From Pseudomonadota bacterium (lineage in GTDB: Bacteria > Pseudomonadota > Gammaproteobacteria > Competibacterales > Competibacteraceae): DNA of 64,000 bases. Where the stretch lies: NCBI GenBank assembly GCA_030917925.1, contig JAUPTV010000149.1:1-64000 (forward strand), read 5' to 3'. Position 1 is the stretch's first letter, and every line of letters starts with the position of its first letter. The notes under the pieces are model-generated. The model saw nothing but the letters and a program-made list of their open reading frames with translations, searched no databases and was not told the origin of the DNA. Shown in pieces: positions 42,070 to 49,769 of this stretch. A program made the translations under genes and the position numbers.

Positions 42070-45000
42070 ATGCTCCACAGCCGCGCTGGCGGAACGTTTC
42101 ACCATGCCGGCATCGCAAACTTTGCCCACACCGATGCACTGGATTTCATGATCGATACCTTGGATGAAAACGACTGGCACACCGCTGAAGATATTCGCCT
42201 CCTGACCCGCCTCGCGGCCTTATTCCATGGCTTTGGTAAGGCTAATGACGCTTTTCAAAAGAAATTGGCCAGCAAAAAACCGGTAGCCGATGCCTACCGG
42301 CATGAATGGGTCTCCCTACGGTTGTTTGAAGCCTTTGTCGGACAAAGTACCGATCAAGAATGGCTGACTCGGCTGACGGGCTTACCCGATGACGTCAGCG
42401 CGGCTTGTCTCGACCAACTCCAGCGGATCTGCGATGGAGTGGGAAATCGGCGTATTGATAGCCCCTTCAAAAAATTGCCGCCTCTAGCGCAAGTCGTGGG
42501 TTGGCTGATGGTCAGTCATCATCGCCTGCCCACGCCGACGCAGGATATCGTCCTGAACAAGCGGCTCTTAGAGAAACTGCTGGAACAGATCGACCATCGC
42601 TGGTGTGGTAGTCGACCCGAAGAAGCCAGTGCTCCCGCGTGTTGGCAATTCAAGAATGGTCTACCCCTGGACAGCCAACACTGGCGTCAGCACACGGCCA
42701 AGGTGGCAAAGGCAATCTTGCAACGCTCGCGTCTGGTCGGCGAGGGAGAAGCGGTCAAGCTGCTGGAGAGTCCATTTATCCTGCATCTTTCGCGCATGGC
42801 CTTGATGCTGGCCGATCATTACTACTCGGCGCAAGACAGTCATGCGCGATATGGCGACAAACCGGGCAAAAAAGGCACGGTACTCTACGCCAATACCGGA
42901 ATTCAGAACGGCAAGCGTGAACTCAAACAGCGTCTGGACGAGCATTTAATCGGCGTGGAAGCCAGCGCTAGCCGGATCGTCAGGACCTTGCCACGTTTGG
43001 CCACTGCACTACCGCGTATCGCCCGACATAAGGGATTTCGTGAGCGTAGCAAAGGGTTGTTTCGCTGGCAGAATCAGGCCTTCGATCTCGCCGAAAGCCT
43101 ACGAGAGCGAGCGCTCCACCAAGGCTTCTTCGGCGTTAACCTGGCGTCTACCGGTTGTGGCAAGACGTTAGCCAATGGGCGCATTCTCTATGCCCTGGCG
43201 AATCCACAATTAGGGGCACGATTCACAGTGGCGCTGGGCTTGCGGACCCTCACGCTGCAAACCGGCGACGCCTATCGCCAGCGTTTGCATCTCGGCCCGG
43301 AAGATTTGGCGGTACTGGTCGGCGGCGTCGCCACACGCGCCCTGCATGACTACGCGCTCAGCCAACAGGAACAGGCGCAGGTGGATAACGGGTCCGAGTC
43401 CAGCGCGGCGCTATTGCCTGATCACAATCATGTGCATTACGAGGGTAGCCTGGAAAGCGGGCCGTTGAAGGAATGGTTGGGTCAGAGTGATGCCTTGCGC
43501 CTGCTCGATGCGCCGGTACTGGTCTGCACCATTGACCATCTGATGCCGGCGACCGAGGGCGTCCGGGGCGGACACCAGATTGCGCCCATGCTGCGGTTGA
43601 TGACCGCCGATTTGGTTCTGGATGAGCCGGATGACTTTGGCATTGAAGACTTGCCCGCGCTGACCCGATTGGTGCATTGGGCCGGTTTGCTCGGTAGTCG
43701 CGTTTTGCTGTCATCGGCTACCTTGCCGCCCGCGCTGGTGCAAGGCTTGTTTTTGGCGTATCGAGCCGGGCGGGTGGAATATCAACGCAACCGGGGCCGT
43801 CCAGACGCCCGTTCAGCGGTGTGCTGCGCCTGGTTCGATGAATTTGCCGTACAGGCTGACGATTACGATGAGGGGGTGCCCTACTTGGCCGCCCACCGCC
43901 AGTTTGTTGAGCAGCGCCTGACGCGACTGGCCAAAGCGGAAGTCCGCCGCCGGGCGCTGATCGTTGAGGTGCCCGTCACCGCTCAACAGTCGCGGGAAGT
44001 CATTTGTACCGAGTTGGCCGGGCCGTTGCGCCAACACCTGCATACCTTGCATCGCCAGCACCACAGCACCGATCCCCAAACGAGCCAACGGGTCAGCTTC
44101 GGCCTGATTCGTATGGCGAACATCGATCCATTGTTCGATGTGGCGCGGGAACTCTTTCGACAGGGCGCGGAAGTGGGCGGCCACATCCATCTGTGCGTCT
44201 ACCACTCGCGTCATCCGCTGCTGGTGCGGGCGGCGATTGAACGCACCCTGGATGCCGCCCTTCAGCGCAGCAAGCCCGATGATGTGTTCAAGCTCGAAGG
44301 TGTGCGCCAAGCGATCCATACCTCACCGGAGCAAGACCACATCTTTGTCGTGCTGGCCACCGCCGTCGCCGAAGTGGGGCGCGATCACGACTATGACTGG
44401 GCGATGGTTGAACCGTCATCCATGCGCTCAATCATTCAACTGGCCGGTCGCGTTCGCCGGCATCGGGCCGGAATGTGCGCAGTCGATCAACCGAATCTGT
44501 ACCTGCTGGATACCAACGTGGTTCATCTCGTTCAAGGAGGCAGCAAGCCGGCCTTTTTGCGTCCCGGTTTCGAGAGCAATAGCTTTCCACTCGCCAGCCA
44601 CCGTTTGACGGAAATTCTCACCCCTGAACAGTGGCAAGTGATCAACGCGGCGGCTCGAATCAAGGAACGCGATCCATTGATGCCGCAAAGCAATCTAGTT
44701 GATTTGGAACACGCCCGCCTGAAAGACCTGATGCTCGGTGCTAATGCCGGTGAAGTGCAAGTAGACGACCCGGTTCATCGGTGGTGGACCACCGGCGCTC
44801 ACCTGAGCGGCCACCTTCAGCGGCGTAAACCCTTTCGGGATGATCCCCTGGGACGGTCGCAGTACGCTCTGCTGCCGAATGACGATGAAGCCATCAATTT
44901 CTATCACCTGCCAGACGGTGATGAACCGCGACTCATGGGTCATCTTTGGCGGGAAATGCAGGACAGCGATGTACCGAACGGGCCACGCATCAGTGCATGG

Positions 45001-45159
45001 GCGGTACCTTGCTATCTGGAGGCGTTGCAAGCGTTGGCCGAGAACCAACAGATGGAATTGCGGGATTGCGCGTTGAAGTATGGAACGCTGGATTTGCCCG
45101 GCAAGAAGCCTGAACAGAGGTGGCGCTATCACTATGCGCTGGGGTTTAGCCGATATTGA
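42070..45159 (+). CDS. cas3: Type I-F Cas3 lacking the N-terminal Cas2 fusion, HD-motif variant
   Basis: DENDWHTAEDIRLLTRLAALFHGFGKANDAFQ; YRHEWVSLRLFEAF; SHHRLP; ASTGCGKTLANGRILYAL; DLVLDEPDDF; LLSSATLPPALVQGLF; IIQLAGRVRRHR. Confidence 0.95.
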   Translation: MLHSRAGGTFHHAGIANFAHTDALDFMIDTLDENDWHTAEDIRLLTRLAALFHGFGKANDAFQKKLASKKPVADAYRHEWVSLRLFEAFVGQSTDQEWLTRLTGLPDDVSAACLDQLQRICDGVGNRRIDSPFKKLPPLAQVVGWLMVSHHRLPTPTQDIVLNKRLLEKLLEQIDHRWCGSRPEEASAPACWQFKNGLPLDSQHWRQHTAKVAKAILQRSRLVGEGEAVKLLESPFILHLSRMALMLADHYYSAQDSHARYGDKPGKKGTVLYANTGIQNGKRELKQRLDEHLIGVEASASRIVRTLPRLATALPRIARHKGFRERSKGLFRWQNQAFDLAESLRERALHQGFFGVNLASTGCGKTLANGRILYALANPQLGARFTVALGLRTLTLQTGDAYRQRLHLGPEDLAVLVGGVATRALHDYALSQQEQAQVDNGSESSAALLPDHNHVHYEGSLESGPLKEWLGQSDALRLLDAPVLVCTIDHLMPATEGVRGGHQIAPMLRLMTADLVLDEPDDFGIEDLPALTRLVHWAGLLGSRVLLSSATLPPALVQGLFLAYRAGRVEYQRNRGRPDARSAVCCAWFDEFAVQADDYDEGVPYLAAHRQFVEQRLTRLAKAEVRRRALIVEVPVTAQQSREVICTELAGPLRQHLHTLHRQHHSTDPQTSQRVSFGLIRMANIDPLFDVARELFRQGAEVGGHIHLCVYHSRHPLLVRAAIERTLDAALQRSKPDDVFKLEGVRQAIHTSPEQDHIFVVLATAVAEVGRDHDYDWAMVEPSSMRSIIQLAGRVRRHRAGMCAVDQPNLYLLDTNVVHLVQGGSKPAFLRPGFESNSFPLASHRLTEILTPEQWQVINAAARIKERDPLMPQSNLVDLEHARLKDLMLGANAGEVQVDDPVHRWWTTGAHLSGHLQRRKPFRDDPLGRSQYALLPNDDEAINFYHLPDGDEPRLMGHLWREMQDSDVPNGPRISAWAVPCYLEALQALAENQQMELRDCALKYGTLDLPGKKPEQRWRYHYALGFSRY

Positions 45160-45242
45160 CTGCCGCATAGGCAGCTTAGAAATTGAGTTTATCCAGCTTC
45201 GGTTGGAGACGTTCGATTACTGCCGAATAGGCAGCTCAGAAA
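45155..45242 (+). CRISPR. Intra-operonic mini-CRISPR: 2 divergent I-F repeats flanking one 32-nt spacer
   Basis: ATTGACTGCCGCATAGGCAGCTTAGAAA (45155-45182), spacer TTGAGTTTATCCAGCTTCGGTTGGAGACGTTC (45183-45214), GATTACTGCCGAATAGGCAGCTCAGAAA (45215-45242); the 60-bp period equals that of the main array. Confidence 0.93.
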
Positions 45243-45261
45243 AACTTCAAGGAGTTCTATT

Positions 45262-46569
45262 GTGGTCTCATCAGAAATTTCCATACAGGATGTTGCTGCC
45301 CACATCCGAAGTGCTATCGCCGCATTTCTGCAAGACCGCCTCAAACCGAAGCTGGACAAAATCAAAGAGGACGATCACGCCACACGGCAAAAGCTGCTGG
45401 ACGCGCATGAGCCGCAGACCTGGATTGCCAATGCGGCGCACCGGGTTAGTCACATTCAGCAAGTGACTCACGCACTAAAATTCAGCCATCCCGACGCCAA
45501 AGGTTCCAATCTAACCAGTTTAGGTAATCCACACGCGGGTGAACTCACCGTGGGTTCCCATGCTTTGGCGAATACGTTGCCACCCGACATAGTGGGCAAT
45601 GCGGCGGACCTCGATGTGTACAAGTTTTTGCGCCTTGAAGTGAATGGTCAATCCCTGCTGGATCGGGCCATCGCCCAAGACCCTGCACTGGTTGCGGCTC
45701 TTTCTGATAATGCTGACTTGGCTCGCCAGTGGATGGCGGCTTTTGCGACGCTGCCCGAACCCAACGGCAAGCTGTCTACCCACAAATTAGCCAAACAGGT
45801 TTATTGGCCGCTGGGTGACGGGCGCTATCACCTGTTGGCTCCGCTGTTTCCGACCGCTTTGACGCATAGAGTTTGGGAGCGCATCCGCGAGGATCGTTTT
45901 TCCGATGAAGCCAAAGCGGCACGGGAAGCCAAACGGGAGCATCGCGCTCACCCCCACGGCTATCGCGAATATCCGAATCTGGCAATCCAGAAGTTTGGGG
46001 GCACCAACCGGCAAAATATTAGCCAGCTTAATGTCGAACGTTATGGCGAAAACTGGCTGTTGCCCTCGCTCCCGCCGACTTGGCAGTCCGATTCGATACG
46101 TCCGCCATTTTTCACCGATAGCGTATTGAGTCGCCGTTTCGGCAGCCGTCCTGAAGTCAGACGCCTCACGCAAACCTTGCGCGAGTTTCTGAAAAAAGTG
46201 GCGAAGATTGATAGCAATATCCGGATTCGCGACAAACGGGCGGAACGGGTGGGTGATCTTCGCGATGAGTTACTCCAGTTTGCCGCTGAACTGCATGAAC
46301 TCGATGCCGGTTGGACGCAGAGCGAAAAATGCCGTCTCAACGCGGCGGAACAATGCTGGCTGGATCCCAAACGCGCTGAGATTGACGAGGAGTTTGCCAC
46401 GCGCTGGCAACGTGGCGACTGGCAAGATGAGGTCTGTTTGCGTTTTGGCAACTGGCTCAATGCGGCGATCAGCAGTGAACAAACGCCGATGGGGCAAGTG
46501 GAGTCCGAAGCGTGGCAAACCGTATTGGACGACGAGTTGCGGATGATTCGCCTGGAGCTGGCTCCATGA
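45262..46569 (+). CDS. csy1: Type I-F Cascade large subunit Csy1 (Cas8f)
   Basis: GTG start, RBS AAGGAG at 45249; KLDKIKEDDHATRQKLLDAHEPQTWIANAAHRV, HPDAKGSNL, YPNLAIQKFGGTNRQNISQLNVERYGENWLLPSLPP. Confidence 0.95.
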   Translation: MVSSEISIQDVAAHIRSAIAAFLQDRLKPKLDKIKEDDHATRQKLLDAHEPQTWIANAAHRVSHIQQVTHALKFSHPDAKGSNLTSLGNPHAGELTVGSHALANTLPPDIVGNAADLDVYKFLRLEVNGQSLLDRAIAQDPALVAALSDNADLARQWMAAFATLPEPNGKLSTHKLAKQVYWPLGDGRYHLLAPLFPTALTHRVWERIREDRFSDEAKAAREAKREHRAHPHGYREYPNLAIQKFGGTNRQNISQLNVERYGENWLLPSLPPTWQSDSIRPPFFTDSVLSRRFGSRPEVRRLTQTLREFLKKVAKIDSNIRIRDKRAERVGDLRDELLQFAAELHELDAGWTQSEKCRLNAAEQCWLDPKRAEIDEEFATRWQRGDWQDEVCLRFGNWLNAAISSEQTPMGQVESEAWQTVLDDELRMIRLELAP

Positions 46570-47564
46570 CGCACCGATTGATCGACGCCGGGGGTCTGCT
46601 GATCCTGCCACGCTTGCAGGTGCAAAATGCTAACGCCATTTCTGGCCCGCTGACCTGGGGGTTTCCATCGCCGACCGCCTTTACCGGCTTTGCCCATGCC
46701 CTGGAGCGCCGCTTGCGTGACGCGGCAGGCGACTTGAAACAAGGGTTTGGCGGAGTCGGTATCATCTGCCACCGCTTTGAACCCCAGGTTTCCCAGCCTG
46801 CCGGGCGGCGCACTCAGGTTTTCTGCCTGACGCGCAATCCGGTCGGCAAGGATGGGGGTTCAACGGCTCTGGTAGAAGAAGGCCGCGCTCATCTGGAAAT
46901 CAGCTTAGTTATCGCTGTGCAGGATGGATTTAGTGAAGCTGACGGCAACGACTGGGCAAAGATCGCTCACCATACGGCCCAAGGAATGCGTTTGGCGGGC
47001 GGCAGCCTCCTGCCCGCTCGGAACGGTGAACGCTATGAGGCCCGGTGGCAAGTCTTGCCTGATTCCCTTAATTTGCAACAGGAATTATTCAAAAAGATGC
47101 GCCGGCGCTGGTTGCCGGGTTTTGCCCTGGTGCAACGGGAAGACCTGCTGGCGGAACGCTTGGCCGAACTCCGTGTTGCTCAACCTGATGCGACCGCTCT
47201 CGATGCCTTGCTCGACCTGTCCCGGCTCAATATCGAACCCACAGTCCTTAATCCAGACCCGCCGGAAGCGGTGACTTGGCAAGTGCGTAAGCGTCCGGGC
47301 TGGATCGTGCCGTTGCCGGTCGGTTATGCCGGAATCTCGCCTCTCTATGAGGCCCGCGACGTTGAAAACACGCGTGATGGCCTCACGCCCTTCCGTTTTG
47401 TGGAATGCCTGTATTCCGTGGGCCAATGGATCAGTCCCCATCGGTTGGACGATCTCCACGCACTGTTCTGGCATACCGAAGCGGACCTTGAAAAGGGCAT
47501 TTACCGTTGTATCAACCTCTATTCCGAAACCCTCCCCTCTATCGCCCCTGGTAATATCGCATAA
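46566..47564 (+). CDS. csy2: Type I-F Cascade subunit Csy2 (Cas5f)
   Basis: LLILPRLQVQNANAISGPLTWGFPSPTAFTGFAHAL; ATGA overlap with the csy1 stop; RFVECLYSVGQWISPHRL. Confidence 0.95.
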   Translation: MTHRLIDAGGLLILPRLQVQNANAISGPLTWGFPSPTAFTGFAHALERRLRDAAGDLKQGFGGVGIICHRFEPQVSQPAGRRTQVFCLTRNPVGKDGGSTALVEEGRAHLEISLVIAVQDGFSEADGNDWAKIAHHTAQGMRLAGGSLLPARNGERYEARWQVLPDSLNLQQELFKKMRRRWLPGFALVQREDLLAERLAELRVAQPDATALDALLDLSRLNIEPTVLNPDPPEAVTWQVRKRPGWIVPLPVGYAGISPLYEARDVENTRDGLTPFRFVECLYSVGQWISPHRLDDLHALFWHTEADLEKGIYRCINLYSETLPSIAPGNIA

Positions 47565-47576
47565 GGAAGTAATGAC

Positions 47577-48623
47577 GTGGCTAAAACTGACCTGAAAACG
47601 GCCTCTGTATTGGCCTTTGAACGCAAACTGGACCCCTCAGATGCGCTGTTTAGCGCCGGGCGTTGGAACGAACGAGGGAATGGCGACCGCTGGCCGACTT
47701 TGGGGGTGCGGGAAAAATCGGTGCGGGGCACCATCTCCAACCGACTGGCTGATAAAGATCAGAACAACGCTGCCAAACTGGATGCTTCGATTCAGTCGCC
47801 CAACCTGCAAACGGTGGATGTGGCCACGCTGCCCAATGATGCGGATACCTTGCGTGTCCGTTTCACGCTGCGCGTCCTGGGTGGGGCCGGTACCCCGTCG
47901 GCCTGCAATAATGCCGACTATCAGCAAAAATTACAGAGTACCGTCAAGCAGTATGTGGACCAGACAGGCTTTGCCGAACCGGCCCGCCGTTACGCCTTCA
48001 ACTTGGCCAATGGCCGATCACTGTGGCGCAATCGCATCGGTGCAGAACAAATTGAAGTACAGGTCCGCTATTTGAAGCAGGGCGAAACCGCTCAGGTCTG
48101 GACCTTCAACGCGCATGACTTTTCCCTGCGGGATTTTGTAGAAAAACCGGCTCACGCCCAAGCCCATCTACCCGCGCTGGCGGCGGTGATTGAACAAGGT
48201 TTGGCGGGTAAGGACTATGTGCTGCTGGAAGTGGTAGCTTATGCGCGGGTCGGTGATGGGCAGGGAGTCTATCCCTCACAAGAGCTGATTCTCGATAAGG
48301 GCGACAAGAAGGGCCAGAAGAGCAAGACCCTTTACACGGTGGGCGACATCGCAGCGATTCACAGCCAGAAGATTGGCAATGCCTTGCGAACGATTGATAC
48401 TTGGTACCCTCACGAGGAAGGCACGGACATCGGCCCGATTGCCGTGGAGCCTTATGGATCGGTCACTTCGCAAGGCAAGGCGTATCGCCAACCCAAAGAC
48501 AAAGTGGATTTCTATAGCCTGCTCGACAATTGGGTGCTGAAAGACAAAGCGCCGGATATCGGCGGTCAGCATTATGTAATGGCTACGTTGATCCGGGGTG
48601 GCGTCTTTGGTGAGAAGGATTGA
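47577..48623 (+). CDS. csy3: Type I-F Cascade backbone Csy3 (Cas7f)
   Basis: [48 protein letters not shown]-like [26 protein letters not shown]. Confidence 0.95.
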
Positions 48624-48626
48624 TGA

Positions 48627-49190
48627 ATGGATGCTTACCTTGAAATCAGGCTGCGATCTGATCCCGAGTTCATGTCCACCACATTGATGAATGCTCTGTT
48701 TAGCAAGCTGCACCGTGGACTCGTCGCGCATGGCGGGCAAAATATTGGCGTGAGCTTTCCCGATGTGGGGAAAAATAGCCGGTCTCTGGGTGAGCGCCTG
48801 CGTCTCCACGGCAGCAAAGCGGACTTGGAACAGTTGATGGCTTTGAACTGGATGGTGGGGATGCAAGATCACGCAATGGTGAGTGCGATTATGGAGATTC
48901 CCGCCCACACCAAATCAAGGGTGGTTCGGCGCGTTCAGGCTAAAAGCAACCCCGAACGACAACGGCGTCGGTTGATCAGCCGTAAGGGCATCAGCCCGGA
49001 GCAGGCGATACAGGCGATCCCGGACGATGCAGCGGAAATGTTGAAGCTACCTTACTTGGTTTTGGCCAGCCAAAGTACCGGCCAGCAATTTCGCCTGTTC
49101 GTCGAGCATTTGGTCGTTCAGGAACGAGCTGTCATTGGACGGTTTAGCACATACGGTCTGAGTCCAACGGCGACGGTTCCCTGGTTCTAA
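48627..49190 (+). CDS. csy4: Type I-F crRNA endonuclease Csy4 (Cas6f)
   Basis: MDAYLEIRLRSDPEFMSTTLMNALFSKLHRGLV (catalytic His retained), RRVQAKSNPERQRRRL, SQSTGQQFRLFVEH, TYGLS....VPWF. Confidence 0.96.
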   Translation: MDAYLEIRLRSDPEFMSTTLMNALFSKLHRGLVAHGGQNIGVSFPDVGKNSRSLGERLRLHGSKADLEQLMALNWMVGMQDHAMVSAIMEIPAHTKSRVVRRVQAKSNPERQRRRLISRKGISPEQAIQAIPDDAAEMLKLPYLVLASQSTGQQFRLFVEHLVVQERAVIGRFSTYGLSPTATVPWF

Positions 49191-49321: not shown

Positions 49322-49769
49322 CTTCACTGCCGGATAGGCAGCTTAGAAAAAGTCGATTGCCTGGGACTACCTCAAGCATTTCTTTACTGCCGGATAGGCA
49401 GCTTAGAAAACGCGATGAATGAGCGGACAGCCGTCACTCATCTTTACTGCCGGATAGGCAGCTTAGAAAAACAGGGCGAAACGTGGTGGGATATTCCCGA
49501 CCTTTACTGCCGGATAGGCAGCTTAGAAAGCAATCGCGGCGTTCAATGGACTATTGCCATGCTTCACTGCCGGACAGGCAGCTTAGAAATCCATCAGGCG
49601 CAGGGCGCTTAGGATGTACCACTTCACTGCCGGACAGGCAGCTTATAAAGTAGTGATTGCCACTATTTGATACTCCGTTTTCTTCACTGCCGGACAGGCA
49701 GCTTAGAAAGCCCTGGTTGCAGAGATTCAGCGGCAGGAACACTTCACTGCCGGACAGGCAGCTTAGAAA
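49322..49769 (+). CRISPR. Type I-F CRISPR array, 8 repeats (28 bp) and 7 spacers (32 bp)
   Basis: Repeats start at 49322 and every 60 bp to 49742; consensus CTTYACTGCCGGAYAGGCAGCTTAGAAA with a CTGCC/GGCAG Csy4 stem. Confidence 0.98.

Follow-up and report, generated by a model that had tools for sequence, protein, structure and literature searches.

The window, by which we mean the whole stretch of 64,000 nucleotides that was analysed, carries a type I-F CRISPR-Cas operon consisting of cas3, csy1, csy2, csy3, csy4 and a main array (Table 1). The frame of cas3 opens with a segment of 66 nt corresponding by alignment to the cas1 3' end at the related locus L013 and then continues as Cas3 from residue ~100. 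In the region 42070-42231, an in-frame deletion has taken out the Cas2 domain and joined this C-terminal piece of Cas1 to Cas3. In the alignment, D124 of the P. aeruginosa protein is the counterpart of the replaced aspartate of the HD motif. With a mere remnant of cas1 and the Cas2 domain deleted, the working adaptation module of an ordinary I-F system is absent. Another I-F cas3 was sought in the genome to which the window belongs, and none was found. At G000:C237:2351-3617, a separate locus that is not I-F by its neighbourhood, there are two more cas1 hits, and small cas2-like frames adjoin them. Having lost cas1, the Cas2 domain and the HD aspartate, the system cannot acquire spacers and is probably unable to cut on its own. 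It may still bind, or borrow Cas2-3 from an incoming operon, and is possibly a binding-only I-F system.

Table 1. Features of the type I-F operon and of the mini-array in the window.
Feature	Position	Strand	Remarks
cas3 (type I-F), without Cas2 domain, starting with a remnant of the Cas1 C-terminus	42070..45159	+	TIGR02562, residues 30-1026 to profile 100-1109; alignment to the cas1 3' end and cas2-3 of L013
cas1 3' end remnant, in-frame fusion to cas3	42093..42158	+	aligns to L013 1086-1151, the cas1 3' end
GGC (Gly) for the metal-binding Asp of the Cas3 HD motif	42229..42231	+	FHDFGKA in relatives, FHGFGKA here
mini-array repeat 1	45155..45182	+	overlaps cas3 and supplies its stop codon TGA
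mini-array spacer	45183..45214	+	TTGAGTTTATCCAGCTTCGGTTGGAGACGTTC; antisense to a csy1 coding sequence
hypothetical csy1 sequence with a perfect spacer match			GAACGTCTCCAACCGAAGCTGGATAAACTCAAGG
mini-array repeat 2	45215..45242	+	intact stem for Cas6f
csy1 (cas8f)	45262..46569	+	TIGR02564, 390.7 bits
partial self-protospacer in csy1 codons 25-35	45334..45365	-	27/32, seed mismatch at position 5
motif beside the self-protospacer	45366..45367	-	CT in place of CC
csy2	46567..47564	+	TIGR02565; start picked by eye
csy3	47577..48623	+	TIGR02566
csy4 (cas6f)	48627..49190	+	TIGR02563
main CRISPR array	49322..49769	+	8 repeats, 7 spacers; cas matches of the spacers not above chance

Between cas3 and csy1, two 28-nt repeats enclose one 32-nt spacer on the plus strand (45155-45242). 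The geometry of this mini-array is that of an ordinary type I-F array (28-nt repeats, 32-nt spacer, 60-nt period). Compared by eye, repeat 1 matches the main-array repeat of the relative L012 at 27/28 positions and the window's own main-array repeat at 25/28, and both mini-array repeats deviate from the latter. The 5' handle CTTAGAAA is intact and, according to fold prediction, so are the stem-loops. For this reason a standard crRNA is expected: Csy4 should free a normal 60-nt crRNA from the mini-array. Two repeat-like copies with Csy4 stem-loops around one spacer beside csy1 are also a trait of CreR/CreA-like elements. We looked for a promoter-like site for the mini-array and saw none. The spacer (45183-45214) itself folds into a UUCG-loop hairpin, and the mature crRNA has a fold z-score of -3.7, which might hinder target pairing.

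The sequence-only reading of this locus had reported that the spacer is complementary to the adjacent csy1 at 27 of 32 positions. Realignment of the reverse complement bore this out, with mismatches at alignment positions 3, 6, 10, 24 and 28, corresponding to spacer positions 30, 27, 23, 9 and 5 from the PAM side. Its account of the codons was equally accurate, as two of the changes are synonymous and three are conservative. When 1000 shuffles of the spacer were compared with both strands of the 64 kb window, all stayed below the real match; the top value of 24/32 was reached once. The second-best site of the real spacer in the window scored 20/32 and the seven main-array spacers reached at most 22/32. 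In addition, 198 spacers were pulled from arrays in the fetched loci, the mini-array spacer included, and the remaining 197 matched these loci at no more than 23/32. Both the shuffles and the lower matches of the other spacers exclude chance as the cause of the csy1 match.

The partial self-protospacer sits inside csy1, 72-103 nt past the start, and not in a promoter or in the gap. The PAM of type I-F is 5'-CC. Both the CT motif found here and the mismatch at seed position 5 had been missed by the earlier reading. The CT motif is unfavourable but not null, since a G at position 2 or 3 was reported to be enough for interference in E. coli I-F (PMC3506596). As the motif at the self-site carries A1 G2, it may, by analogy, not abolish activity there. 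The wobble positions of csy1 fall on spacer positions divisible by 3, and every second one is also a flipped crRNA position that is not read (6, 12, 18, 24 and 30); owing to this overlap (45183-45365), the guide would tolerate many synonymous csy1 changes.

Comparison with other csy1 genes points to the origin of the spacer. Against 17 of them, the mismatches number 15, 5 and 101 at the first, second and third codon position, respectively. Csy1 of L008, which comes from a genome of the same genus, contains exactly the peptide that the spacer encodes, ERLQPKLDKL; at the nucleotide level the match is 28/32, and all four changes are synonymous. The peptide is also present in Csy1 of L030. In the tree, Csy1 of the window clusters with L012 and L013 (support 94/91), and these two read DRLKPKLDKL. 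The source of the spacer thus lies outside the window's Csy1 clade, because the spacer peptide differs from this clade in having E and Q instead of D and K. Several csy1 genes match the spacer at 27-28/32 with coding-type mismatches, and the best CC-flanked matches reach 27/32 (L013 and L027). The site in L013 csy1 equals the resident site in its score of 27/32, but it has a CC PAM and a perfect seed at positions 1-8. The earlier proposal that the guide was made against a related csy1 is supported in three ways: by the codon-position statistics, by the peptide shared with Csy1 from other lineages, and by L012 as an additional independent locus, whose guides point at a related cas3. At the sequence level, derivation of the spacer from an unsampled csy1 homologue of a related type I-F operon is strongly supported.

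A csy1 with a perfect spacer match and a CC PAM was not found in any collection searched (phage, plasmid, viral contigs and 369 genomes of the class). Among 50,697 phage and 72,556 plasmid records, no protospacer matched across most of the spacer, and the best hits were short and unrelated. The viral contigs contained no Csy1, no match to the degenerate ERLQPKLDKL pattern and no exact spacer core. With up to three mismatches allowed, the spacer was found in the 369 genomes of the class only in the window itself. The csy1 genes of plasmids and phages showed less than 60% identity. We also considered the unique resident seed residue as proof of escape; this argument is weak, as V or A occupies that place in other lineages.

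Plus-strand mini-arrays in the cas3-csy1 gap occur at two loci only, the window and L012, whose csy1 is 79% identical to that of the window. In L012, three repeats enclose two spacers, both of which are antisense to the adjacent cas3 end. Spacer 2 matches cas3 of L013 at 31/32 positions with a CC PAM, whereas the own cas3 agrees with it at 27/32, has GC in place of the PAM and differs at seed positions 2, 5 and 8; single bases of L012 carry limited weight, as the coverage of this metagenome contig is low (2x according to its title). Spacer 1 matches cas3 of L014 and L015 at 24/32 with CC and the own cas3 at 20/32; it also has a self-site with CC and 9/10 seed positions. The identity between L012 and L013 is 93-94% in cas3 up to ~L012:3940, drops to 64-68% from there to the gap and returns to 92% in csy1. 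This profile leads to the conclusion that a foreign cas3 3' end was inserted together with the three-repeat mini-array into an otherwise L013-like operon, which makes L012:3940-4470 a recombinant tract. Spacer 2 fits the kind of allele that was replaced there. In a system competent for cutting, so close a match (31/32) next to CC would hardly suit a regulatory guide, but it is as expected of one directed against a rival allele. The viral contigs did not contain the target of spacer 2 in L013 cas3.

All three plus-strand spacers of the window and L012 match sequence at most ~110 nt from the gap. Rival targeting alone does not explain this nearness. It possibly results from recombination at the gap that carries array and junction together. 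Another possible cause is spacer uptake primed by regulatory guides that bind in the gap; bidirectional priming in I-F has been reported (PMC4117759).

We consider it reasonably probable that the mini-array is an anti-cas guide within a cas operon, directed against csy1 of related I-F operons and sparing the resident allele. Judged from the sequences, an anti-cas function of the mini-array is likely. The mini-array would be co-transcribed with the operon and cut at both repeats by Csy4, giving a 60-nt crRNA. The Csy complex with this crRNA would then bind a related csy1 that keeps the CC PAM and the seed, for example of the L013 type. The resident csy1, where the PAM reads CT and the seed is broken, would be spared. 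Cutting or silencing would await a rival operon that enters through recombination or is carried in by an element. As the HD aspartate is missing from the resident Cas3, the newcomer's Cas2-3 may be needed for cutting, in line with the model for the orphan arrays of E. coli; otherwise the effect would be limited to binding. If this is true, CRISPR systems compete directly for one locus, and guides in cas operons target the sibling junction and spare the resident one. It would also help to explain the frequent replacement of cas modules and the gathering of guide elements in the cas3-csy1 gap.

Anti-cas spacers are already known and were described as leftovers in E. coli without cas genes; guides that reside in the operon and spare the own allele represent a variant of them. 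Touchon and Rocha 2010 (PMC2886076) described short I-F arrays of E. coli with spacers matching I-F cas genes, in strains without those genes, and such arrays were proposed to exclude incoming cas genes. Almendros et al. 2016, cited in PMC8616872, reported that anti-cas spacers of this kind prevent the uptake of active I-F systems. Like the orphan CRISPR3/CRISPR4 arrays of E. coli, the mini-array is a short I-F array with homology to I-F cas genes of other strains, spacer addition is not possible, and the guide would be expected to act on an incoming I-F system. In contrast to the window, however, the genomes with orphan arrays have no I-F cas genes, and their spacers are part of CRISPR-locus arrays and match cas1, cas3 and csy2. 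The mini-array is instead placed in a resident cas operon with csy1-4 and cas3 that lacks cas1 and the Cas2 domain. Its match is to the csy1 start (the cas3 end in L012), and the resident allele would be spared by differences in PAM and seed. The arrangement also resembles virus-borne mini-CRISPR arrays (PMC6858448), in that the mini-array of one element is aimed at a related competitor, but there viruses use host Cas proteins, whereas here a cas operon would stand against a cas operon.

An extension of the anti-cas reading, which we regard as quite improbable, is that the array and its resistant flanks form an allele-replacing unit, like a natural gene drive with a recoded rescue. In the sibling allele, the guides would cut where cas3 and csy1 join, and the tract with array and altered junction would then take its place by recombination. 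L012 would be the footprint of such an event, with a foreign cas3 end and a mini-array in an L013-like operon and a guide matching the replaced L013-type allele at 31/32.

Alternatively, the spacer could have been taken from the local operon, with the resident PAM and seed changing afterwards, or the gene being replaced, so that autoimmunity was avoided. This would fit the protospacers adjoining the array, the replacement of the targeted L012 cas3 end by recombination, the deviating seed and PAM of the self-site in the window and the damage to Cas3, a known outcome of self-targeting (PMC6990116). We nevertheless see in it a minor possibility: the residues E and Q of the spacer peptide are D and K throughout the window's Csy1 clade, which excludes the resident csy1 as the source unless the gene was replaced, and no recombination drop is visible at the start of the window's csy1.

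Given the degraded state of the system in the window (cas1 and the Cas2 domain missing, HD aspartate changed to Gly) and a genome that holds no other I-F cas3, the guide may also be a dead relic, that is, an old spacer from a foreign or ancestral csy1 that persists without function in a decaying system. The deviation of the mini-array repeats from the main repeat and the missing promoter-like site point in the same direction. The intact state of csy1-csy4, of the 5' handle and of the stem-loops argues against it, as does the independent mini-array of like design in L012, and we judge this explanation to be rather unlikely.

The anti-cas guide has furthermore to be weighed against a cas-regulating guide of the CreR/CreA type, whose crRNA would bring the Csy complex to the own csy1 by partial complementarity and block transcription without cutting. 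The cas3-csy1 gap is the usual site of such elements, both among the fetched I-F loci and for CreTA in Acinetobacter (PMC10097628). The target of the window guide lies just within csy1, and, as Cas3 lacks the HD aspartate, the cell would survive binding of the guide to its own site. We detected a minus-strand pair of degenerate repeats in this gap at 15 other I-F loci (L010, L013, L015, L027, L029, L030, L033, L036, L039, L042, L044, L045, L052, L055 and L057). Without exception (15/15), the enclosed spacer targets its own gap with a CC PAM and 9-10/10 seed positions, the mismatches being distal, and shuffled spacers equalled these self-matches in 0 to 0.5% of trials. These elements are of the CreA/CreR kind. 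Put to the same self-target test, the spacer of the window (p 0.95) and spacer 2 of L012 (p 0.91) failed, while spacer 1 of L012 passed, a point for the regulatory explanation.

The window spacer shows the reverse of the pattern of the 15 elements, with a CT motif, a seed mismatch and a matched distal part, and its mismatches are those of coding drift between csy1 lineages. The suggestion of the sequence-only reading that the guide regulates its own operon is therefore not supported. As the spacer fails the self-target test, autoregulation via DNA binding is unlikely for the window guide, and we give the regulatory explanation little credence. PAM and seed on self would offer a simple rule that separates self-control from anti-rival guides in any genome. 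The CRISPR-derived regulatory mini-arrays of Shmakov et al. 2023 and CreR of Liu et al. 2023 reportedly lie near cas8, target promoters and keep PAM and seed. The mini-array resembles them in its position beside cas8 (csy1) and in its partly complementary spacer, but this spacer fits a foreign coding sequence better than its own. With CreA/CreTA of Acinetobacter (PMC10097628) it shares the cas3-csy1 gap, two repeat-like copies around one spacer and a partial match nearby. There, however, the guide matches its own gap with a CC PAM and seed and represses, and the CreA targets keep the CC PAM. In contrast, the array in the window is on the plus strand, has the canonical 60-nt period and a coding-sequence target, and lacks PAM and seed on self.

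A cis-acting RNA element, which would act on translation through pairing of the spacer with codons 25-35 of csy1 within the operon mRNA, is very improbable, since two Csy4 sites would free the spacer and the pairing partner of the L012 spacers is cas3. The predicted fold of 45140-45380 (-74.5 kcal/mol) does contain the long-range helix, located around the start region, and would agree with such an element, yet we rejected this helix as evidence because it follows automatically from the antisense homology.

In the minus-strand elements of the gap, mismatches are often found at the flipped positions 6 and 12, and CreA/CreR-like elements of this kind are widespread in I-F operons. At L013:4620-4965, ~350 nt with a GC-rich hairpin separate the regulatory repeat pair from csy1; this stretch may hold a creT-like toxin RNA or a small ORF.
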